The notes under the pieces are model-generated. The model did not search any database. It was not told where the DNA came from and was given only the letters and a program-made list of their open reading frames with translations. From a virus, in the IMG/VR virus record IMGVR_UViG_3300037961_002528, positions 1 through 20,921 of that record: 20,921 nt of DNA, one strand, 5' to 3'. The position numbers and the translations under genes are program-made. This document shows positions 2,607 to 13,597 of the stretch, piece after piece. How positions within the stretch are numbered: position 1 is the stretch's first letter; each line of letters starts with the position of its first letter.

Positions 2607-2846
2607 TTAACCACAACGCCATCTACGAAGTGCTAGAGCCTTGCGTGTAGGACGGCCTTTAGAATCTGTCATAGGGCCTTTTACGCCCTTCATACGAGCA
2701 CAGAAAGATTTCTTCCTGGCAGCTCTTTTACCTTTAGGATTTTTTTCTGTTACTGGTGGTTTTAGATTGGCACCTGTCTTGCGCTTGAAGTAAGCACGTC
2801 CAGCTGCTGTCAATCCACCCTTTTTACTTTTGTGCTCTTTTCTCAT
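2607..2846 (-). CDS. Small basic phage protein, DUF6321-like
   Basis: A 79-residue, strongly basic protein. The order GGLTAAGRAYFKRKTGANLKPP (residues 10-31), then NPKGKRAARKKSFCARMKG (36-54) and a C-terminal RRWRC matches my memory of DUF6321, a family of unknown function common in marine and cyanobacterial phages. Cysteines are at 49 and 78. Its ATG overlaps the preceding stop in a TAATG junction, which implies translational coupling. The basic charge suggests nucleic-acid or capsid-interior contact, but that is inference and no catalytic motif is visible. Confidence 0.85.
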   Translation of the reverse strand: MRKEHKSKKGGLTAAGRAYFKRKTGANLKPPVTEKNPKGKRAARKKSFCARMKGVKGPMTDSKGRPTRKALALRRWRCG

Positions 2847-3352
2847 TAATTCACTCTATTGTTTTTTAAATCGTCTATAAACTTTGCTTCTTCTGGAGAT
2901 AATTGATCTATTTTGCCCTCTTGTAAATTATCTAAAAATTCATTAAAACTTTTCATTCCTCCGCCACGAAATCCTTCGAACTGACCTTCGTCTCTCAAAA
3001 AACCCTCTTTATTTATACGAATAAATTTTTTAAAATCCTCTATATTTCTTTTTCCAGATTGTCCTGTTATCGGATCAAATTTTTGGTTGTTAAAATCTCC
3101 TATTTCTTGCATTTGATCCGCAATCATCTGTCTGTCCAACATTGTTAGTACACCAGGTTTTTTTAACATTGATCGCAATGAACCAAACATCTCTTCTTTA
3201 GCATTTATTTTGTTTAACGCCGTATTAGGAATTGAGTATCCTAGAACGGGCAATGGAGTATCATCAGTTCCTACTTTTCGAGTTCCGTCTGGATTTACGC
3301 TAACAACAGATTTGATTGAGCCATCTGGATTGTATGTATATTGCAATGCCAT
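2846..3352 (-). CDS. 168-aa protein with a PGVLTMLDRQMI motif
   Basis: A hydrophilic protein of 168 residues that I do not recognise as a family. The first 30 residues contain an NPDGSIKSVVSVNPDGTRKV segment that looks like a short beta-hairpin repeat (NPDG twice). Residues 66-77 read PGVLTMLDRQMI, identical to residues 30-41 of the 66-aa protein encoded at 4106-4306, and the underlying DNA is also nearly identical. The C-terminal half (from about residue 100) is charged and probably helical (EEAKFIDDLKNN). Both ends have TAATG overlaps with the neighbouring genes. Position among small virion-type genes suggests a structural or assembly role, without direct evidence. Confidence 0.85.
   Translation of the reverse strand: MALQYTYNPDGSIKSVVSVNPDGTRKVGTDDTPLPVLGYSIPNTALNKINAKEEMFGSLRSMLKKPGVLTMLDRQMIADQMQEIGDFNNQKFDPITGQSGKRNIEDFKKFIRINKEGFLRDEGQFEGFRGGGMKSFNEFLDNLQEGKIDQLSPEEAKFIDDLKNNRVN
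3121..3157. repeat. 37-nt direct repeat, copy A
   Basis: This segment matches 4183-4219 at 36 of 37 positions by eye. It encodes PGVLTMLDRQMI of the 168-aa protein in the same reading phase as copy B. The offset between copies is 1062 bases, a multiple of three. Confidence 0.95.
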
Positions 3353-3597
3353 TACTTTTTAGTTCTTACTTTCGCTGATGGTGTATTTGGGACAACGGCT
3401 CTTCCGCCTTTTTGGCCTCTCTTCTTTTTGCGAGCTGTTGCAGCACGCTGGGATTTCGATAGACTTCTAGCTTTAGCCATCGGAAGGCACCTGTCGGGAT
3501 TCTTCTTGTTCTTAGATGTTCCGCAAGGGCCTTTGATTTCTCCATCAGTACCAATCCTTACCCAGTTTTGCTTTACCCATTTTTTTAGTTCACCCAT
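3352..3597 (-). CDS. Small basic protein, DUF5872-like
   Basis: An 81-residue basic protein. It begins MGELKKWVKQNWVRIG, followed by GPCG (C25) and RCLPMAKARSLSKSQRAA (C37), then a KKKRGQKGG stretch. The layout W-V-x-I-G, a Cys-Gly, a second Cys-x-P-x-A-K-A and S-x-S-Q-R is that of DUF5872 as I remember it, a family of unknown function in phages and some large viruses. The two spaced cysteines could bind metal, but this is not shown. It is coupled to both neighbours by TAATG overlaps. Confidence 0.85.
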   Translation of the reverse strand: MGELKKWVKQNWVRIGTDGEIKGPCGTSKNKKNPDRCLPMAKARSLSKSQRAATARKKKRGQKGGRAVVPNTPSAKVRTKK

Positions 3598-3761
3598 TAC
3601 TTTTTCTTACGTTTACCTTTAGCACCCTTTGCGTAATTAGGATCCTTACAATACTTAGAAGCAGCCATATTCGCATAAGCACTTGGGTACACATCAAATG
3701 TACGTCTTGCCCAAGCTTTACCGGCTGCACATATCTTATTACCCTTTCTTTTTGCTGCCAT
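3597..3761 (-). CDS. 54-aa basic phage protein (KICAAGKAWAKRT-type)
   Basis: Short frame starting at ATG 3761 and ending in a TAA that overlaps the next ATG. The product begins MAAKRKGNKICAAGKAWARR, continues TFDVYPSAYANMAASKYC and ends in a poly-Lys tail. I recognise the ICxxGKAWAxRTFDVYPSAYANMAASKYCKDPNYAK pattern as recurrent in marine phage small proteins; its function is unknown. Cysteines are at 11 and 38. The coding sequence overlaps the end of the 38-aa gene upstream by 23 bases. Confidence 0.8.
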   Translation of the reverse strand: MAAKRKGNKICAAGKAWARRTFDVYPSAYANMAASKYCKDPNYAKGAKGKRKKK

Positions 3762-4105: not shown

Positions 4106-4306
4106 TTATCTCCTATTTGGGTTATTAGATTTTTTTGTTTTTTTTGAAGTATTTTCTAGAACTCGTCTACCGTAGTCAGGATCAATCATCTGTCTGTCTA
4201 ACATTGTTAGTACACCAGGCCCTAAGTATTTCCCTAATGATTTTCTCTGGGAAGGATTGTTTTTTGCTATATTTGCTAACTTTGCAAGGATTTTAGATTT
4301 TTTCAT
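4106..4306 (-). CDS. 66-aa basic protein sharing a 12-aa motif with the 168-aa protein
   Basis: A basic protein with an N-terminal helix candidate (MKKSKILAKLANIAKNN), then PGVLTMLDRQMI (30-41) and a Lys/Asn/Arg-rich tail. The 12-residue motif is identical to one in the 168-aa protein about 1 kb downstream; outside it the two proteins do not align convincingly. There is no SD before ATG 4306; the leader is AT-rich. The next gene (ATG 4100) follows its stop within 5 bases, with its SD inside the 3' end of this gene. I recognise no family. Confidence 0.8.
   Translation of the reverse strand: MKKSKILAKLANIAKNNPSQRKSLGKYLGPGVLTMLDRQMIDPDYGRRVLENTSKKTKKSNNPNRR
4183..4219. repeat. 37-nt direct repeat, copy B
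   Basis: Second copy of the repeat at 3121-3157, with one mismatch. It encodes PGVLTMLDRQMI at residues 30-41 of the 66-aa protein. The two copies enclose the whole block of tiny basic genes. Confidence 0.95.
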
Positions 4307-4340: not shown

Positions 4341-4619
4341 TTACTTTCTTTTAATTAGAGCCACTGTCAGTAAACAAAGTCCCATAAATAAACCAACAAA
4401 TGCAGGCTCTGGCACACTATTGTAATCTACTGAAAGTCTGTACTCTACTTCATTCCAGTTGTACTCTTTACCTTCGTAAAGTAATCCGTCAAATTCACTG
4501 TATGCCCACTCTGGTATAGATGGTACAAAGAAATAATTAAAGTTAGTGGATGTAATGCTATCACCCCAACCGTAGTCGAAGTCGTTGTCAATATCAAGTT
4601 CTGAAAATTCGTGGCTCAT
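4341..4619 (-). CDS. Acidic protein with PEP-CTERM-like sorting signal
   Basis: A 92-residue protein. Residues 1-68 are very acidic and rich in Tyr/Trp/Phe. The C-terminus reads V69-P-E-P72, then a hydrophobic helix of about 17 residues (73-89), then KRK at the extreme end. This is the three-part architecture of PEP-CTERM signals, which in hosts are recognised by exosortase, which cleaves at the motif. Normal PEP-CTERM cargo also has an N-terminal Sec signal peptide, and none is visible here (the start is MSHEFSELDID), so this would be an atypical substrate or simply a C-tail-anchored protein. The ATG overlaps the stop of the 56-aa membrane protein (ATGA). I do not recognise the N-terminal part. 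The motif is plain in the sequence; exosortase involvement is inference. Confidence 0.85.
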   Translation of the reverse strand: MSHEFSELDIDNDFDYGWGDSITSTNFNYFFVPSIPEWAYSEFDGLLYEGKEYNWNEVEYRLSVDYNSVPEPAFVGLFMGLCLLTVALIKRK

Positions 4620-4786
4620 TTTTTAAATAGGGATGTAAAGATTGATGCTACCTCTTTAAAGGCTTTGGCAATGAAGTTGTCCTTAGGCAGAAACATCATT
4701 ACTATAGATATTATACCAATGTAGGCAAATGCTATTCCTAGCATATTGTCCTTGTAGTTGTCGAAAATGTATTTAAAAAATTCCAT
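4616..4786 (-). CDS. 56-aa single-TM protein
   Basis: Starts at ATG 4786, overlapping the stop of the 298-aa gene (TAATG), and ends with TGA overlapping the next ATG. The sequence is MEFFKYIFDNYKDN, a hydrophobic segment at about 15-33 (MLGIAFAYIGIISIVMMFL), then a basic amphipathic tail (KAFKEVASIFTSLFKK). The tight coupling at both ends supports it being a real gene. Size and topology would fit a small holin-like or lysis accessory protein, but no family is recognised. Confidence 0.78.
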   Translation of the reverse strand: MEFFKYIFDNYKDNMLGIAFAYIGIISIVMMFLPKDNFIAKAFKEVASIFTSLFKK

Positions 4787-5682
4787 TAGTTTATAGGTGA
4801 TACTTGTCTTGTGTTTGAATGTGGTTTTATATCATCTCCCATTGGCTCAAAAGGAGTTTCTACAATAGGTAGATCGGACTTGACATTATCTGATTTTGAC
4901 TCAGAATCGGGTGATGAATTACTTTCTTGAGTTTGCTCTTTACTTTCAGTTTTTTCTTGCTGGTCTGACGATTGCTTATCTTTGCTATCTTGTTTTGAAT
5001 CGCTATCTTTAGATGATTTATCTTCTTTTGATTCTTTTTGCCCTTTATCTTCTTGCTTATCATTAGATGATTTATCCTGTTTTGTTTCTTCTCCTTTTTG
5101 TTCTGAGCCTTGCTTGGTTTCAGTATTGGAAGACTGAGAGGATTTATCTGAAGAGTCGGATGGTGAAGATTGAGAAGATGAAGGTGTGGGATCCGGTGAA
5201 TCAGCGCTTCCGGACTGTGAAGAGGAGGGTGAAGCGATAGCTTCAGCTCTCTCTACAAAGTCTTGTGCAGCATCTATCTTTTCGGCCATCACTACTTGAC
5301 CCCAATCATTTAACTCGTGGAAATCAACAAAGGTATCAATAAAGAATGGAGCTTCGATACGCTCCTCCACAACATCGTTTGCGATGCTCGCCACGAAGAC
5401 TTCTGTCTGATCTACCGCAACCGTTGTCTGAGCAACTGCGGCTGTACTTACAGCAACACTACCAGCTGTTCCTAGTTCGCTAACCTTCTGTACAACAGGT
5501 AGGTCTTTTATTTTTTCAAGAAGCGACTTTTTAAGTTGCTTACCAGCTGACCTGGCTTGCTGGATAGCTTCAGCAGACTGCTCTTTAATCTCTTCAGAAC
5601 TTTGGTAATTTTTTCCGTCCAAGACTTCGGACAGAGAATCCCGCAATTCTTTGAGTTTATCTTTGGCAGTTTGCTTATCCAT
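4786..5682 (-). CDS. 298-aa protein with coiled coil and charged low-complexity tail
   Basis: Three zones are visible. Residues 1-60 are a charged helical/coiled-coil region. Residues 68-100 are alanine/valine-rich and moderately hydrophobic (AGSVAVSTAAVAQTTVAV), possibly membrane-associated. Residues 151-270 are almost only Ser, Lys, Asp, Glu, Gln and Asn, a disordered polyampholyte. The last 28 residues return to ordinary composition (DLPIVETPFEP). No family is recognised with certainty. There is no SD before ATG 5682; the leader is AT-rich. It lies between the holin candidate and a single-TM protein. A spanin-like, membrane-bridging or virion-linker role is possible but unproven. Confidence 0.82.
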   Translation of the reverse strand: MDKQTAKDKLKELRDSLSEVLDGKNYQSSEEIKEQSAEAIQQARSAGKQLKKSLLEKIKDLPVVQKVSELGTAGSVAVSTAAVAQTTVAVDQTEVFVASIANDVVEERIEAPFFIDTFVDFHELNDWGQVVMAEKIDAAQDFVERAEAIASPSSSQSGSADSPDPTPSSSQSSPSDSSDKSSQSSNTETKQGSEQKGEETKQDKSSNDKQEDKGQKESKEDKSSKDSDSKQDSKDKQSSDQQEKTESKEQTQESNSSPDSESKSDNVKSDLPIVETPFEPMGDDIKPHSNTRQVSPIN

Positions 5683-5704: not shown

Positions 5705-6112
5705 TTATTTACTTACTGCGGCACTTCCAAAATAAAAGGAAATAATACTGATAACCGCTGTTTTGATTTCTGGTAAAATTATATATCCGTGTAGAGTTTC
5801 GTAAGTTGTGCCTTTAACAAAGCCAAACCACTTGCTATATTCGTGAGCAACTGTTACGCCTTCTTCGCTATGAGCTAAAATAAATGGTGCAACAATTACT
5901 CCAAATAGTACAGTCAATACAATAATACGTCTAGTCCAAGCACCAAAGGCATCTACCCTAGCTGCTGCTGCATCTGCACTTGCGTCTGATGCTTGTTGTC
6001 TTTTAATAAGTCCTTCAGTGACAGCTGCTTGGTTTTGAACCATAGTGCCGATCAACTTGAATACGAACCCGGAGAATCCTCCTCCTAGCATTGCTAATAA
6101 TTCTGTTGTCAT
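5705..6112 (-). CDS. Three-TM membrane protein, holin candidate
   Basis: A 135-residue protein with an N-terminal Gly-rich hydrophobic segment (about 4-24), a soluble Ala/Asp/Arg helix (28-56, QQASDASADAAAARVDAFG), a clear TM helix (63-80, IVLTVLFGVIVAPFILA) and a C-terminal hydrophobic helix (115-131, VISIISFYFGSAAVS). This layout resembles the GTA-type 3-TM holin family and similar marine phage membrane proteins. AAGGA sits 7 bases before the ATG, which overlaps the stop of the 52-aa gene (ATGA). The neighbouring small membrane genes support a lysis role, but no endolysin is in the window, so holin remains a candidate. Confidence 0.75.
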   Translation of the reverse strand: MTTELLAMLGGGFSGFVFKLIGTMVQNQAAVTEGLIKRQQASDASADAAAARVDAFGAWTRRIIVLTVLFGVIVAPFILAHSEEGVTVAHEYSKWFGFVKGTTYETLHGYIILPEIKTAVISIISFYFGSAAVSK

Positions 6113-6519: not shown

Positions 6520-9500
6520 TTAGTAAATATTATAATGATTGTTTATGTCTGTATTTAAATCAGCAACATCATCTTGTAATTTTGCTTTGTAATAAATGAC
6601 CTCTGATACTCGACCATCCCAAGGAAAGGACGAAGAACTACGAACGTTTCTACCTATAGCACCATTTGTTGTATCTATTGCTGCACTTTGGATAGCAGTT
6701 GTTCCTTTTGATACGTTATCTAAAAATGCTTCTGCGTTTGTATCTCCCGTGACAAAAGATGCTAAGTAAGTTCGGTTAGCATCATAACTTCCCATATTTA
6801 TTTTAGTAGCTGAGTCTCCGTAACCAAAATACATAGTACTACCAGTAAATATAGGTGTATAAAACCTAGATGTACTACTACTGCTACCAAGCTGACCAGC
6901 AACAGTACCGTTTCCAGAATTAACATCTCTTTCAAATACAACAAATGTTGAAACAGTATTAATGTTATCAATTACAGCAGGTACATCTAAATGGTCAGAG
7001 CTAGGAATAAAATTAAGAGATGGTTTACCTTTTGAATTTTTAACTGTACCTCCGTTATGAACAATTAATGGTTGTTCACTAGCTGTTGTCTGTGTAGCAT
7101 CGTTACCGCTGTCACTTTGGTCGTACCAAGTTTCTACGAAACCATCACGAGCTATGCGAGACACTTTGAAATCTGATATACTATAATTTTGAGTACCCTC
7201 GGTATCGCCTATGGCAAAATAAACAGCAGTTGCATTTGTAGTAATACTACCAGAATTAAATCCATTTGTAATTGCTACAGAACTTGAATTAGCATTTGAT
7301 GTACCATCAGATTGTTTTAAAATAACCGCTGGTGTTCCACTTGTAATGCTTGCATTGAATGAATAATAAACCACTTTTCCACTAGGTACATTTTGCTCAA
7401 ACTGCCATCTAGCTCTTGTGCTTGCTACTCCAGCACTATAATCTATAGTATACCCATCTTTACCATTTGAAGTAAAAGCACTTCCATAAGGGGCGGTTGG
7501 GTCATCACTCCAGTCAGTAGACATATCATTCGCATCATTGTACAACCCATAATAGTTATTGATGTTGGACTCAATCTTGAAGCGATTGTCTGATTGGTCA
7601 GTAGCATAAAATATAGCTTCTTTCATACTACCATTAAGTGGGCTACTTGCACCATTACCTCTAGCTCCTAGCTTAACAGTGCCAATAGATTTATCACCAA
7701 CATCTGAGTCAGCACCATTGTCTATTATAACTGCATTGCTATTAAAGTCAGTAGTAGTGCCACTATTTATATTGGACACTAAGTACATTTTATTAGCTAT
7801 ATAAGGTGTAGCAGTTAAGTTACTTTTTAGTGTTGCAGAATTATCTCTTGCTTGCCAACCTAAATTACCACTACTATGAAATAAAGTATTATACATAGGG
7901 CTACTTAAACCAGCATTACCAGCTCCAATAATATATTGAGTCGTACTAGCTGCATCTGAATTTACTACAATAAAAGCAGAAGATACTGCATCTGTTCCGG
8001 TATAAATTGATTGTAAATCATCTGCTAACAAAAAATCATCACTTCCGTCAAAGTCTATTCCATCAGAGAGCAATGCTCCATTCTCTGCAATCTTTGGTTG
8101 GTTAGCAGCAGTTGTTTGAGTTGCATTGTTTGACCCAGCTTGGTCGTACCAAGTATGGACAGTAGCTCCGTGTTTAATTATTTCAAATTTTAGATTCGTT
8201 AATGATATAGAAGAACTGCCAGAACTAACTATTGTTTGTAAAAATACAATAGACCTAAAGTCATTTGAACCATTACCAGTAAATTCAAATGAAAAGTCTC
8301 CGGAGTCTCCGTTAGAAAATTTAAAAGTATCAGATGATATTGTACCTACACCAGTTGATGTTAGGTTTGCAAAATCGTGAGTAGAAGAAGCAGTATCATT
8401 ACTGCCTTGTTTTATATTAAAACCAGTTCCTCCACTAGCTGTGTAATTTACGGTACCAGAAAATCTAAATGTAGTGCTAGCAGATTCAGCTGCTGTAAGT
8501 GTTGCTGGTAGTACATAGTTATATCTAGCTGTGTTATCAGCAAATGTTTCAGTAGTTGCAACAAATGAGTTAGATGTTGCCGTTAATGTACTCCATTTTC
8601 TAAAATCAGAACCAATACCACTTGGGTAATCTACTGCACTAAATCTATCTGATAGTGTTTCATTTAAAAATCCATTAAGATCAGTAACACTTGTGCTAGC
8701 AGAACTACTACCAGTGGTTTCTTCTCCTACATTAGATACTAAAGAATTATTACTAACATTTCCATCTGAATCAAAATGTACATTTACCTCTATATCGTCT
8801 GAGCTTCTGCGAATTTGTGCACTTGGACTAATAACAGATGCAGTTAATGAAGAAAATGCTACAATTTCTCCAACATCACAATTTACTGATTGATTATTAG
8901 AATCAACTGCATTTAGTATTCTACCTACTTCTCCTATTCCAGTTTCGATTTTGTATTTGTCTGTTCCGCTATAATAACTTCCAAAAAATACTGTAGCTGT
9001 TGTCCAAGCACCACCTACGATAGTTACTCCATCCTTTGTATAAGTTGCAATAGATGAACCAACAACCCATTTGTTACCTACAAGCGGACTATCGCTTTCT
9101 ACATAGTATTCAAATGTTATTGATCCGCTAAATCCAGCAAGAAAATCATTGTTATTTAACCAAAGCTGTGGATTTGATGGACTATTTACACTTGTAAAAA
9201 GAGCAACATTACTTTTACCTTCATAAGTAAAACCCCCAACGCTTGTAAATAATGAAGTACTATTTGGAACTAACCCATCAGTACCAGAACTAAAGTCAGC
9301 AGTGTAAACTAAACTAGGCCCGTCTTTTACCTTACGAAGACTATAAGCAGCTGCGGCTGTTGCTACATCTGCTGGTAGTGTAGTCTCTAGTTTACCATTT
9401 ACCCATTTTTCTAAAGTACCATCTTGTACTTGATTAGCTGAAAATCTTTCCTCATCATCTATTCCAGATGTAGTATCATATGGTTCTCTACGTGCTCTAA

Positions 9501-9678
9501 CAACAGAGCCATTCATTGCGCCAATATCTCGCAATGAGTACGCTGCTGAGGCACCACCGAATCTACCAGCTATTCCTAGATCGGTATAGTTTGCACTAGC
9601 ACCATCCAAGATATTCCAGGATGCACCAAGATCACCCTTCAACTCTGTTTGGGCAGATGCTAGATGTTCTGAAGACAT
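6520..9678 (-). CDS. Tail fibre/adhesin with duplicated LamG-like modules
   Basis: 1052 residues, rich in Ser, Thr, Asn and Gly and nearly free of Cys. The N-terminus (1-115) has two AAYSLR elements (GGASAAYSLRDIGAMNGSVVR and AAAAYSLRKVKDG), a motif I know from marine phage fibres. A beta-rich domain follows at about 119-280, with IRRSSDDIEVNVHFDSDG near 290. Then a module occurs twice: a CBM-like beta domain, a conserved V-x-TWYDQ...NATQTTA...QP-x-I segment (about 508 and 849) and a LamG/ConA-like domain ending in INNYY or INNHYN (about 706 and 1048). This suggests glycan binding at the host surface. No depolymerase catalytic motif is evident. There is no SD; the start context is TAATTATG. 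Confidence 0.88.
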   Translation of the reverse strand: MSSEHLASAQTELKGDLGASWNILDGASANYTDLGIAGRFGGASAAYSLRDIGAMNGSVVRARREPYDTTSGIDDEERFSANQVQDGTLEKWVNGKLETTLPADVATAAAAYSLRKVKDGPSLVYTADFSSGTDGLVPNSTSLFTSVGGFTYEGKSNVALFTSVNSPSNPQLWLNNNDFLAGFSGSITFEYYVESDSPLVGNKWVVGSSIATYTKDGVTIVGGAWTTATVFFGSYYSGTDKYKIETGIGEVGRILNAVDSNNQSVNCDVGEIVAFSSLTASVISPSAQIRRSSDDIEVNVHFDSDGNVSNNSLVSNVGEETTGSSSASTSVTDLNGFLNETLSDRFSAVDYPSGIGSDFRKWSTLTATSNSFVATTETFADNTARYNYVLPATLTAAESASTTFRFSGTVNYTASGGTGFNIKQGSNDTASSTHDFANLTSTGVGTISSDTFKFSNGDSGDFSFEFTGNGSNDFRSIVFLQTIVSSGSSSISLTNLKFEIIKHGATVHTWYDQAGSNNATQTTAANQPKIAENGALLSDGIDFDGSDDFLLADDLQSIYTGTDAVSSAFIVVNSDAASTTQYIIGAGNAGLSSPMYNTLFHSSGNLGWQARDNSATLKSNLTATPYIANKMYLVSNINSGTTTDFNSNAVIIDNGADSDVGDKSIGTVKLGARGNGASSPLNGSMKEAIFYATDQSDNRFKIESNINNYYGLYNDANDMSTDWSDDPTAPYGSAFTSNGKDGYTIDYSAGVASTRARWQFEQNVPSGKVVYYSFNASITSGTPAVILKQSDGTSNANSSSVAITNGFNSGSITTNATAVYFAIGDTEGTQNYSISDFKVSRIARDGFVETWYDQSDSGNDATQTTASEQPLIVHNGGTVKNSKGKPSLNFIPSSDHLDVPAVIDNINTVSTFVVFERDVNSGNGTVAGQLGSSSSTSRFYTPIFTGSTMYFGYGDSATKINMGSYDANRTYLASFVTGDTNAEAFLDNVSKGTTAIQSAAIDTTNGAIGRNVRSSSSFPWDGRVSEVIYYKAKLQDDVADLNTDINNHYNIY

Positions 9679-9680
9679 AA

Positions 9681-10001
9681 TTAGTCAGTAAACTCAGTTA
9701 AGTATAAGTTTGATGTGGTTGTACCAGCTCTGATAAAACTAGCATCTTGCATAGCTTTTTTACTAAATGTATAAGAACGTCCGGCGTATAATCTGTGACC
9801 CTTAGGGGCTGATTGACTTGCAGAACCTGTAAAGTTTACAAAGGCATCTGCATCTTGAACGTCTAATGCAATGTATTTAGTTAAACCGCTATAAGAAGTA
9901 GTTACACCCTCTGGTGATGAGCTACTAGCGAGCTCTATACGCTCCATAGTAGTACCAACAGTTGGCTTTGGGTACAAGTTAGTTACGAATGAATTAGGCA
10001 T
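9681..10001 (-). CDS. 106-aa small virion candidate
   Basis: A compact, beta-rich looking protein without cysteines or TM segments: MPNSFVTNLYPKPTVG, ERIELASSSSPEGVTTSY and GHRLYAGRSYTFSKKAMQDAS. It lies between the adaptor-like gene and the fibre, with 2 bases to the fibre start. That position and the beta-rich composition suggest a small virion protein such as a fibre-attachment or decoration protein. I do not recognise a family; ATG 10001 is chosen because no in-frame alternative sits closer to the upstream stop. Confidence 0.82.
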   Translation of the reverse strand: MPNSFVTNLYPKPTVGTTMERIELASSSSPEGVTTSYSGLTKYIALDVQDADAFVNFTGSASQSAPKGHRLYAGRSYTFSKKAMQDASFIRAGTTTSNLYLTEFTD

Positions 10002-10022
10002 AGGTATATTTTATATTGTTTG

Positions 10023-10634
10023 TCAACGTCTTTGACGATTGACATAAGTTGAAAATTTCTTGTTGATTGAGTTATTATTTGATCTAAGATCAATCTTTTC
10101 TAACTCTAAATCCAAGTACTCGTTGGCTAGCTTTTCTTCAGTCAAAGCCTTGCCGTGCTGGCCATCCATTCTAAGAAAGTCTGCATATGTAGCGTGAGCT
10201 AAATAATGAAAAAATTCACCGGGTATATCCGTTGAGTTTTCGTCAAATGTAGATAACTCTTTCTTGTAAGTTACAAAAACAGATGAGTCCTCAGTATTGG
10301 CAATATTAAGAACATTGGCTCCGTTAGCATCTACAAAAAAATCGTACTCAATAGCTGAGTTATTTTTGAATGGCTCTTTTCTATGTATTCTAATAAACTC
10401 ACCAATATTGTTTTTACTAGTCTGTGTGTAAGGAACTATCTGTGTATCAGTAGTCATAGTTCTTTCTTCACCGACTACTAAATACCTGGGCCAAGATGGA
10501 CTTGTATTATACGCTTGTGATGCTCTTCTGTTTACTAAGTTTTTTATCTTTGTATCTTCATCTGATGTAAATGAACTGATACCAGCTAAAGCCTCTATCA
10601 AGGCTTTGAGATCACTATAACTTCTATCTTGCAT
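10023..10634 (-). CDS. Head-tail adaptor-like protein
   Basis: 203 residues with an N-terminal helical segment (SYSDLKALIEALAGI...IKNLVNRRASQAYN), an SWPRYLVVGEERTM segment near 47-60, beta-strands in the centre and a C-terminal helical part (FFHYLAHATYADFLRMDGQH, then EEKLANEYLDLELEKI). This organisation is that of adaptor / tail-tubular-A-type proteins (P22 gp4, T7 gp11, SU10 adaptor), which ring the portal's outer face. It lies on the tail side of the capsid unit and shares a TAATG overlap with the 102-aa gene. Role inferred from pattern and location. Confidence 0.68.
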   Translation of the reverse strand: MQDRSYSDLKALIEALAGISSFTSDEDTKIKNLVNRRASQAYNTSPSWPRYLVVGEERTMTTDTQIVPYTQTSKNNIGEFIRIHRKEPFKNNSAIEYDFFVDANGANVLNIANTEDSSVFVTYKKELSTFDENSTDIPGEFFHYLAHATYADFLRMDGQHGKALTEEKLANEYLDLELEKIDLRSNNNSINKKFSTYVNRQRR

Positions 10635-10942
10635 TATATTTTATTAGGACTTAGATCCTGGAACTTCTTGTTGTAGTACTTTAAAAACTCTTTAGAATGT
10701 ACTTCCTCGTGGCCGTACTTCTTTGTTAGTCGAAAGAACTCACGAGCGGGCATAGTAGCTACACACTTTCCTAGAACAGGATGTGTTTTGCCTCTTTCCT
10801 CTGCTGCTTGCTTTTTAGCTTGTGCAACTCGTAAGTGTTCGGTTTCCTTTTCTAATTGAAAACCACTCTTGATTTCATTTAAGAATGCTTGATCGATTTC
10901 ACCATCTGTGAAATTTTTCGGTAAATTAGTAATAATATCCAT
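10634..10942 (-). CDS. 102-aa unknown protein downstream of capsid terminator
   Basis: A charged protein with two halves: an N-terminal helix rich in Glu/Lys/Gln (residues 10-55) and a C-terminal part reading THPVLGKCVATMPAREFFRL, then TKKYGHEEVHSKEFLKYYNK. I recognise the 'HPVLGKxVATMPAREFFRLxxKYG' style from marine phage genomes as a conserved gene of unknown function. It is the first gene after the terminator at 10958-10986, so it depends on read-through or on a promoter I cannot see. No SD precedes ATG 10942. Its stop overlaps the adaptor start. Confidence 0.85.
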   Translation of the reverse strand: MDIITNLPKNFTDGEIDQAFLNEIKSGFQLEKETEHLRVAQAKKQAAEERGKTHPVLGKCVATMPAREFFRLTKKYGHEEVHSKEFLKYYNKKFQDLSPNKI

Positions 10943-10957
10943 AAGTAGTTTTAAATT

Positions 10958-10986
10958 AAAAAAGGTGGGGGCCGAAGCCCCCGACC
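10958..10986 (-). terminator. Rho-independent terminator with UUCG loop
   Basis: Read on the minus strand this is a GGT-C-GGGGGC arm, a TTCG tetraloop, a GCCCCC-ACC arm and six T. The stem has 9 pairs with one bulged C. It lies just after the 159-aa gene and separates the capsid genes from the tail genes. The very GC-rich stem in an AT-rich region, with a UUCG loop, makes it one of the clearest signals in the window. Confidence 0.95.
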
Positions 10987-10996
10987 TAGAATTTAA

Positions 10997-11476
10997 TTAG
11001 TTAGAGAATTGTTCTCCGGCTGTTGGGTAGTAAGCCAAAAGGATTCTGAATTTACCTTTGGTAGCGTTACCAAAACCATTACCAGTTCCGTTAGAATCAA
11101 TATTAACTGCACTTACAACGTGAGAAGTTGCTGTTGCTCCATTTAAAAGAGCTCCAGTGTTCTCATAGATAAGACCAGCAGTATCGCCTGTGAAGCAGTT
11201 AACTTCAGAAACGAAACCGTTGTCATCTCCATCATCACCAAGTGCGATAGTAGCATCTGAAACAGCACTACCTGTGCTTACGTCAGCTGTTACTAACTCG
11301 TCAACGATGATTGCTGCTTTAGCGATAACTCCAGCAAGTGCTGAACCACCAGCTTGAACAGCTGTTGTTTGTGAGCCTGTTGATGCAGACAATTCTGAAG
11401 CCTTGAAAGATGCTTCGTGAGTATATCCAAGAGCTAATGTCTGGATGTCACCGATTTTTTTAAGTTCGATAGCCAT
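10997..11476 (-). CDS. 159-aa capsid-associated (decoration-like) protein candidate
   Basis: A Gly/Ala/Ser/Thr-rich protein: MAIELKKIGDIQTLALGYTH, SALAGVIAKAAIIVDELVTA and a C-terminal FRILLAYYPTAGEQFSN. It has no TM helix by inspection; composition suggests beta-structure. It lies directly after the major capsid gene and before the terminator, and has a very strong SD (AAGGAGGT, TAATTAATTATG). Such placement is typical of head decoration or head-fibre proteins made in high copy. Family not recognised; role inferred from position and strong translation signal. Confidence 0.8.
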   Translation of the reverse strand: MAIELKKIGDIQTLALGYTHEASFKASELSASTGSQTTAVQAGGSALAGVIAKAAIIVDELVTADVSTGSAVSDATIALGDDGDDNGFVSEVNCFTGDTAGLIYENTGALLNGATATSHVVSAVNIDSNGTGNGFGNATKGKFRILLAYYPTAGEQFSN

Positions 11477-11494
11477 AATTAATTACCTCCTTGA

Positions 11495-12499
11495 TTAGTC
11501 TGTGATTTTACCGTGTGCTTGTGGGTGATATACTCCTAATGTTAGAGAGCAATCAACATAACCACGCTCACCGCCACCTAAGTTAGGTAGACGTGTAGAG
11601 CCCAATGGGATCAACTCGTGGATACCAGCATATTCCGGGTTCAACAAGTAACCAGTTTCGTTAACTGGATCAGTTGTTGGCATACAGTCTGGGTTACCAT
11701 TGATAACTGAAACGATACCGTGATCTGATTGATATAACTCAACAGATAGTTTGATAGTACCGCTGTCACCGTTGTGGTTGAACTCACGATTCTCGTTGTT
11801 AACTCCAACACGAGCGAAATCAGAAATTGTACGGCGTAATGCTGTATCAGCAACTAATGTTAAAGAATCAGTTGTTCCTGTTTTGCGGTAGATTGAAGTG
11901 ATGAGATCGTTGAACTCAGCCTCTGTGATAGCTGTACCACCTTGGTCTTTGATAGAAGCAGATGGTGTTCTGAAATCAGCTGGAACAGGGTTTGTAGCCT
12001 GTGCACCGTTTTGAATCCATTTGCCTAAACCACGGAATCCGTAAGCTGTACCAGCACCGTTTTCTACTGCCATTTCATTGTTTGAGCAGATAGTAGCTTC
12101 GATGTCTCGTTTGATTTCACGGATTGCTTTAGCTTCAGCTTGAGCGATTTTCGCAGGGCCTACAGAATCCACAGCCTCTTGGAGGTCGGATACCATATAG
12201 TCACGGCGGAATTTTTGAACATAATTGCCAAGACGAGCACGTCCAGAGAATTTGTCAGTGAAAGCTGTTACGTCAGCACCTTCAGCAACACCAGCAGTTG
12301 ATGGTGTGTCCAGGCTGTCAACAGTCCACTCAACAAATGTAGACGAAGCACGAGACTTCGGCAATGTTGAAAGGATAGGAGTTTCTTCGGGAGCAAGAAT
12401 AGACAAAACATCTGTCAAGTCTTCTCTGTTGGAAACCGCTGATCCTTGCCCAGTTACTGCACTGGGAGCATTAGGATTGTATGTATCTGAGAATGACAT
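11495..12499 (-). CDS. Major capsid protein, SU10-like (DUF5309 type)
   Basis: 334 residues. NREDLTDVLSILAPEETPIL (24-43), FVEWTVDSLDTPSTAGVAEG, ARLGNYVQKFRRDYMVS and AIREIKRDIEATICSNN follow the order and spacing of the SU10/DUF5309 major capsid family: 'REDLxDVIxxIxPxETPF', 'EWxTDSL', 'GNYxQ' and 'KELKRDIEATL'. This HK97-fold protein forms the shell. It lies between a scaffold-like protein and a small capsid-associated candidate. No SD precedes ATG 12499 (leader AAAAATTATG), although the neighbours have strong ones, so initiation would rely on AT-rich accessibility. The family assignment is firm; the fold statement comes from family knowledge. Confidence 0.93.
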   Translation of the reverse strand: MSFSDTYNPNAPSAVTGQGSAVSNREDLTDVLSILAPEETPILSTLPKSRASSTFVEWTVDSLDTPSTAGVAEGADVTAFTDKFSGRARLGNYVQKFRRDYMVSDLQEAVDSVGPAKIAQAEAKAIREIKRDIEATICSNNEMAVENGAGTAYGFRGLGKWIQNGAQATNPVPADFRTPSASIKDQGGTAITEAEFNDLITSIYRKTGTTDSLTLVADTALRRTISDFARVGVNNENREFNHNGDSGTIKLSVELYQSDHGIVSVINGNPDCMPTTDPVNETGYLLNPEYAGIHELIPLGSTRLPNLGGGERGYVDCSLTLGVYHPQAHGKITD

Positions 12500-12511
12500 A
12501 ATTTTTAATAA

Positions 12512-13597
12512 TTATCGATTTTTAATTTGTAGTGTTCTGAGATTAATAAAATCACTTTTTGTGCCACTTTGTTTAAATCGAGAGCTAAGATCTTTAAGTG
12601 CCTTAGTTGACTTATTCACTGTTTTCTCTGATGTGCTTGCACCGGTTGCTCCGGTTTTTGTAGGTGTTAGGGTTGGACTAGCCACTCCGCCTTTGACCGT
12701 TTGCCTACCATAAATACTATTAGCAGCGTGTGCCATTAAGTAATTAAGTTGAGGCCTTACATCCGGCCCGGCTGATTCTCTTAACTTCTGGAATCTTTCG
12801 TCACCTATAATAGCTTCGTATTGTTTCCGAAGATCATTATCCTCGCCCCCCATCCAAGTGAGCTCTTCTCTTGCTTTTTGTTCAAAAGCTGTCTCTAGTT
12901 GATTTGCTTGTTCAACTGTTTGGAGTGTTCTGAGTTGAGCCGGCAAATACTTATCTCTGGCCTTGCGTGCATTAAGCAAACTTGCACGAACTTCGGACTT
13001 AGTAAGAGATTTACCCTCAACTTCTGCGATATAATCATTTGGCCCAGATCCATCTGCGTTAAACAAAGTATCCTCTGCCCATTCAATGACTTGGTTAACT
13101 TCCTTTGCTTTACTTTGGAGATCATCTAGTGTCTCTAAGTTAGAGTAAGGATTGTTGTTAACTTCCTCTGAAGGATTTAGTGGACTTTGTTCACTCAGTT
13201 GAGATTGCAGTTCTTTTAGTTTTTCTTCAGCTGCTTTACGCTTTGCGGTGAGTTCACCATAGCGAGCAACTGCTCTGCTTCCCAACTTTTCAGATAGTTC
13301 CTTGAGCTCATCATCGGACATATCATCAAGATCAAACTGTGAAAGAACATCCTCGGAACCTTGTGGTTCTCTGGTTTGTTCAGCACCTTCTGTTTGGCTA
13401 AGTACTTCTTCGCTAATCTCAGACGAAGGTTGCTCTGCTACTTCTTCTTGTGCCTCTACGGGTGGAGCTACTTCTTGAGTTGCCTCATTCTGTTGCCCCA
13501 AACGGCGGTTGACAAAATCCGCCATTGACATATTTGACTGTTTCGCTGTTGTTTCATTTACAGGTTCAGCGACTCCTGTTGTGATTTCTTCTGACAT
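12512..13597 (-). CDS. Scaffold-like capsid assembly protein
   Basis: 361 residues, highly charged with no cysteine. The N-terminal 90 are disordered and Glu/Gln-rich, followed by DLDDMSDDELKELSEKLG and a coiled coil (about 110-140, ELTAKRKAAEEKLKELQSQL). A helical middle follows, then a basic C-terminus (STKALKDLSSRFKQ...NLRTLQIKNR). This acidic front, coiled-coil centre and basic tail, placed just before the major capsid gene, is the profile of scaffold proteins. A strong AAGGAG SD precedes ATG 13597. Sequence alone does not name a family; the role is inferred from composition and position. Confidence 0.8.
   Translation of the reverse strand: MSEEITTGVAEPVNETTAKQSNMSMADFVNRRLGQQNEATQEVAPPVEAQEEVAEQPSSEISEEVLSQTEGAEQTREPQGSEDVLSQFDLDDMSDDELKELSEKLGSRAVARYGELTAKRKAAEEKLKELQSQLSEQSPLNPSEEVNNNPYSNLETLDDLQSKAKEVNQVIEWAEDTLFNADGSGPNDYIAEVEGKSLTKSEVRASLLNARKARDKYLPAQLRTLQTVEQANQLETAFEQKAREELTWMGGEDNDLRKQYEAIIGDERFQKLRESAGPDVRPQLNYLMAHAANSIYGRQTVKGGVASPTLTPTKTGATGASTSEKTVNKSTKALKDLSSRFKQSGTKSDFINLRTLQIKNR

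Follow-up and report, generated by a model that had tools for sequence, protein, structure and literature searches.

The question raised by this locus is why a phage should encode a small protein whose C-terminus resembles the sorting signal of bacterial exosortase substrates and whose N-terminus carries no signal peptide. The window, i.e. the whole stretch of viral DNA analysed (20,921 nucleotides of an IMG/VR virus record), comes from a phage group whose capsid protein is of the SU10 type, and its nearest named phage is C75C1 (63% identity in the capsid protein and 78.5% in the terminase). The group carrying the PEP gene, as the gene is called here, consists of widespread marine phages; at least 598 relatives were confirmed in an IMG/VR scan by the portal query alone. 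No homologue of the window PEP protein was found in named phage records.

The open reading frame at 4341-4619 on the minus strand encodes a protein of 92 aa, MSHEFSELDIDNDFDYGWGDS...YRLSVDYNS-VPEP-AFVGLFMGLCLLTVALI-KRK. The tail ascribed to it by the first-pass annotation, VPEP followed by 17 hydrophobic residues and KRK at the C-terminus, can be read directly from this sequence. The description of the head as acidic and devoid of a signal peptide was equally accurate, its 68 residues containing 15 D/E versus 2 K/R and no hydrophobic stretch. Ahead of the tail, no 17-aa hydrophobic window occurs in the window protein or in any of its homologues. The AF2 model of the window protein, a weak one (pLDDT 72, pTM 0.40), places a helix at residues 72-91, which correspond to the tail. 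The protein and its parts, all on the minus strand, are:

4341-4619, minus strand: 92-aa phage protein with an exosortase-type C-terminal tail (open reading frame; 63 distinct homologues)
4416-4619, minus strand: acidic signal-less head of 68 aa with the conserved core YxWxExxYR (invariant Y53, W55, E57 and R61; no hydrophobic window)
4404-4415, minus strand: VPEP codons, residues 69-72 (sequence; conservation in homologues; recombination junction between the homologues L008 and L012)
4353-4403, minus strand: hydrophobic span of 17 residues, AFVGLFMGLCLLTVALI (spans of 17-20 residues in all homologues; AF2 helix 72-91)
4344-4352, minus strand: basic C-terminal end KRK (sequence; short basic end of at most 10 aa in 58 of 63 homologues)

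The bacterial PEP-CTERM domain (TIGR02595/PF07589; exosortase EpsH, PF09721; Haft et al. 2006, PMC1569441) is a module of about 24 residues carried by unrelated heads, in which a near-invariant Pro-Glu-Pro precedes a single C-terminal helix and a basic cluster at the extreme C-terminus. The proteins bearing it have few basic residues before the tail, and about 97% of them have a signal peptide (PMC1569441). The window copy shares the motif (as VPEP), the single helix (17 residues), the basic end (KRK) and the head poor in basic residues. The phage family differs in being phage-encoded, in lacking a signal peptide in most members (no hydrophobic N-terminus occurs in any MSHE-type member), in the occasional loss of the second P and in the end, which is K-rich and not R-rich as in PEP-CTERM proteins. 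No exosortase was found in the 15 phage records searched.

The comparison with curated models, which the first-pass annotation had proposed as a check, gave a divided answer. The window copy scored 14.3 bits against PF07589 and 13.5 bits against TIGR02595, below the respective cut-offs of 20.7 and 16, whereas three members of the family (L042, L206/L160 and L218) exceeded the PF07589 cut-off, as did none of 14 control genomes. L042 was also above the TIGR02595 cut-off. Since the window copy alone is a weak model match, the case for an exosortase-type tail rests on its relatives. In an NCBIfam scan of 31 members, 12 families were matched, 11 of which are PEP-CTERM or exosortase-substrate families. 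The ADAG-class tails (17 of 63 homologues) are atypical, and the one such member scanned matched no PEP-CTERM model. Motif, scores and NCBIfam matches of the relatives support the view that a PEP-CTERM-type signal is present on a signal-less phage protein. Because the signal peptide is missing, the cut-off is exceeded by relatives only and any host exosortase is putative, we describe the window protein as carrying an exosortase-type tail and would not class it as a proven PEP-CTERM member.

The lack of a signal peptide and the sub-threshold scores of the window copy also fit a generic tail-anchored phage membrane protein, whose helix would hold a small head at the inner membrane (compare lysis-regulating or ElaB-like tail-anchored proteins) and whose VPEP, serving as a linker or to cap the helix, would have nothing to do with exosortase. 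The same explanation accommodates the ADAG-class tails and the tolerance of long C-terminal extensions and of replacements of the second P described below. We consider it rather unlikely. The three scores above the PF07589 cut-off argue against it, and so do conservation and exchange of the tail.

Homologues were collected from IMG/VR by a single-sequence scan (41 homologues) and by a profile scan (78 loci), and the results of both, with neighbouring-gene finds, were reduced to 63 distinct proteins. The tail proved to be conserved in relatives: P-E is invariant in all 63 and P-E-P is present in 56. Synonymous change is free across the homologues (each P of the motif is encoded by four codons and E by two; the V codon varies as well), which indicates that selection acts at the protein level and that the motif was not recently copied. 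All three elements in strict form, namely PEP, 17-20 hydrophobic residues and at most 10 residues of basic end, are combined in 51 homologues; a basic end within 10 residues was found in 58. In the alignment of 31 members, whose identity to the window copy goes down to 25%, the only invariant columns are Y53, W55, E57, R61, P70 and E71. Among 234 open frames with a C-terminal TM helix that lie outside the family in the same viral loci, none has PEP at the helix edge; this count and the conservation of the motif ruled out a chance tail. An invariant P-E in tails alike in nothing else is hard to reconcile with a generic anchor. Homologues that keep an anchor without P-E-P had been named as evidence against an exosortase signal, and such evidence is present in part: the second P is replaced in 7/63 (PES, PEQ, PEA or PEF), and the 5/63 with a long C-terminal extension count toward the same point.

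Several homologues have unusual forms. In L031, L041, L195, L199 and L196/L202, the helix is followed by 27-37 residues unlike any canonical PEP-CTERM tail, and the PEP motif is retained. The PEP genes of L159 (3100-3400) and L161 (3100-3400) are reduced; VPEP and the helix are kept, the head core is lost and the start codon is possibly ATA or TTG.

Pairs of relatives revealed how the tail is exchanged. Up to the end of the VPEP codons, L008 and L012 agree in 214/216 nt; beyond this point, their tails and downstream DNA are unrelated. Conversely, the tail DNA of L085 matches that of L003 in 56/57 nt and the heads have no match. In the same slot, L085 (and L133) encode an unrelated protein of 197 aa with a signal-peptide-like start, MKTLIPLLFVSTALIA..., which ends in IPES-MHIGLLMGLCLLTLTLIKRK; a structure model of the L085 protein was set aside (pLDDT 38). 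Head or tail can thus be exchanged while PE, the helix and the basic end stay, and the same tail sits on unrelated heads, as in bacterial PEP-CTERM proteins. The tail is a recombining cassette with its junctions at the motif. Both the position of these junctions and the fact that secreted proteins at this slot bear the same tail weigh against a generic anchor.

A scan of IMG/VR for canonical tails led to L235, a contig that belongs to another phage lineage and encodes a terminase (E 4e-28; PF03237 over the cut-off). It encodes a protein homologous to the secreted domain of L085 (BLASTP 2e-14), whose tail, AVPEPSTYALLAGFSVFMYVAIRKR..., exceeds the PEP-CTERM cut-off with 21.6 bits; as read from the frame, this protein has a hydrophobic start, truncated where the contig ends. 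That the same-slot secreted protein has a canonical PEP-CTERM homologue in another phage is a further point against the generic anchor, and together with the junctions and the secreted versions it strengthens the suggestion that the tail had been captured. A second, small secreted type with a tail of 24 bits, also over the cut-off, was found on the IMG/VR contigs L236-L240. These were not accepted as phage PEP-CTERM proteins, as the contigs gave no terminase or Gp23 match. On L236, a large contig of a putative virus, the small secreted PEP-CTERM protein (4746-5090) is Asp-rich, and a signal-bearing protein near its gene (7319-8818) is tyrosinase-like in appearance.

On the bacterial side, the SFYG-class tail gave one confirmed match in GTDB genomes, VPEPSFYGVLGFGVIALVFARK in a Bryobacterales MAG that carries two exosortase genes. 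This tail is 57% identical to that of the phage homologue L004 over 23 residues; unlike the MSHE-type phage proteins, the Bryobacterales protein starts with a signal peptide, and its head is unrelated to theirs. Bryobacterales were not accepted as the host, since the single match compares tails and does not identify a host. A search of GTDB genomes with the terminase found no relative, and no tRNAs that might serve as a host clue were found. The PEPSTYALLAGF style of the L160 and L235 tails prompts a guess at a verrucomicrobial host.

The PEP gene is the last of three coupled genes that adjoin a probable holin gene and lie among structural genes:

4616-4786, minus strand: TM56, a 56-aa one-helix protein; its stop codon and the PEP-gene start codon overlap as ATGA (overlap seen across loci)
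4786-5682, minus strand: AC298, a 298-aa protein with a weakly hydrophobic segment and a long Ser/Glu/Lys-rich C-terminal part, the first cassette gene (position in loci)
5705-6112, minus strand: 135-aa probable holin, so judged by its position and its hydrophobic segments (match to phrog_38283, of unknown function, E 2e-39)

The overlap of TM56 with the PEP gene is at offset -3 in nearly all loci carrying TM56, and in L085 and L133 the gene of the secreted protein is coupled to TM56 by a GTGA overlap. In every locus that extends far enough, AC298 lies upstream of both TM56 and the PEP gene, and the order is kept despite the moved neighbours in L023, L026 and L027. A frameshift fusion of TM56 and the PEP protein on the A-run before ATGA was rejected; this run is variable (AAGAAATG and AAACGATG occur), and coupling by start/stop overlap is therefore preferred. 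In C75C1, L105, L117, L123 and L131 the holin-like gene is present and the cassette is absent, which makes the cassette accessory. In L196 (3160-3700; same contig as L202), two genes are inserted between TM56 and the PEP gene; both have an N-terminal helix and a charged C-terminal part and are holin- or inner-spanin-like in appearance, which suggests that this slot is a membrane/lysis module.

Elsewhere in the window, the proteins encoded at 4106-4306 and 2846-3352 (minus strand) have the motif PGVLTMLDRQMI in common, as if one were a part-copy in the other. The small proteins at 2607-2846, 3352-3597 and 3597-3761 (minus strand) are very Lys/Arg-rich and conserved in C75C1; the order of their genes is shuffled between relatives (L023, L026, L027), and they are possibly DNA-binding virion proteins. 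L044 encodes a protein of 1841 aa (6999-12524, minus strand) with a HELLH zinc-peptidase-like motif and no Pfam match; among the late proteins examined in the phage group, none was a recognisable endolysin.

The position directly after the holin-like gene and the coupling to TM56 raise the possibility of a lysis factor: with TM56 and AC298, the PEP protein would form an envelope-disrupting complex beside the holin, the exosortase tail replacing the lipid anchor of an o-spanin. Like spanins and holins, it is a small late membrane protein encoded beside a probable holin gene. In addition, the heads are Pro-rich in many homologues, no lipoprotein turned up when near-complete contigs of relatives were put through a simple lipobox scan, and the helix-plus-charged genes of L196/L202 lie between TM56 and the PEP gene. 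The PEP protein differs from spanins in that the window copy lacks the N-terminal lipobox signal of an o-spanin, and no lysis homology was found in Pfam or PHROGs. As the five relatives named above keep the holin-like gene without the cassette, lysis in the wider group does not require the cassette. We consider a lysis factor very unlikely.

Retention of the tail where the head is replaced (L085/L133), the shortness of the head and its strong reduction in L159/L161 would suit an exosortase decoy, in which a small abundant late substrate occupies the host exosortase and lowers surface-protein or exopolysaccharide assembly, easing release or spread. The tail would then be the active part and the head would matter little. 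However, the Y-W-E-R core is invariant in the aligned members, and hence the head has a job; moreover, the fixed coupling with TM56 and AC298 suggests a complex, and P-E-P is not strictly retained. A decoy thus seems to us very unlikely.

The explanation that we prefer, with belief and doubt evenly balanced, is an accessory late-gene envelope protein of marine phages which carries an exosortase-type sorting signal at its C-terminus and changes the host envelope late in infection. The tail would probably derive from host surface proteins and now be swapped between phages as a cassette, the protein being made as the last product of the AC298-TM56-tail unit. We infer that the hydrophobic tail is most likely a reverse signal-anchor, with the short acidic head out and KRK in the cytoplasm. 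Acidic N-tails are known to be translocated without a signal peptide, as in E. coli ProW. PEP would then come to lie on the outside of the inner membrane, the site of exosortase action in the published PEP-CTERM model (Haft et al., PMC1569441), and an acidic head with a basic end agrees with the head-out orientation of that model. In a host with exosortase, cleavage at PEP could then pass the head to the outer envelope or exopolysaccharide, and the sorted head might alter the envelope, aiding release or blocking further adsorption. The absent signal peptide, the sub-threshold window copy, the 7/63 second-P losses, the 5/63 extensions and the ADAG-class tails all count against this explanation.

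No phage PEP-CTERM protein family was described in the literature covered by our full-text searches, in agreement with the first-pass annotation, which knew of no phage PEP-CTERM effector. That statement is qualified by proteins with TIGR03118, a putative exosortase-interaction domain, counted among genes derived from horizontal transfer in hot-spring viral contigs (PMC11003980); these are a different protein family, reported only as a count and, in the text consulted, with no analysis of conservation or locus.

Taken together, the results suggest that these phages use, or interfere with, a surface-sorting enzyme of their hosts. More tentatively, and with somewhat more doubt than belief, we propose that this phage family uses host exosortase to put its own protein on the host outer envelope during infection, that it swaps exosortase tails like host-range cassettes to fit different host sorting systems, and that export of the head relies on N-tail translocation, not on a signal peptide. 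If so, phages would tap a Gram-negative surface-sorting system for which we found no described viral use, and the tails would provide a host clue for a widespread, host-less marine phage group. A natural, minimal and signal-less candidate substrate would also help in the study of exosortase, since the processing reaction of this enzyme is difficult to assay.
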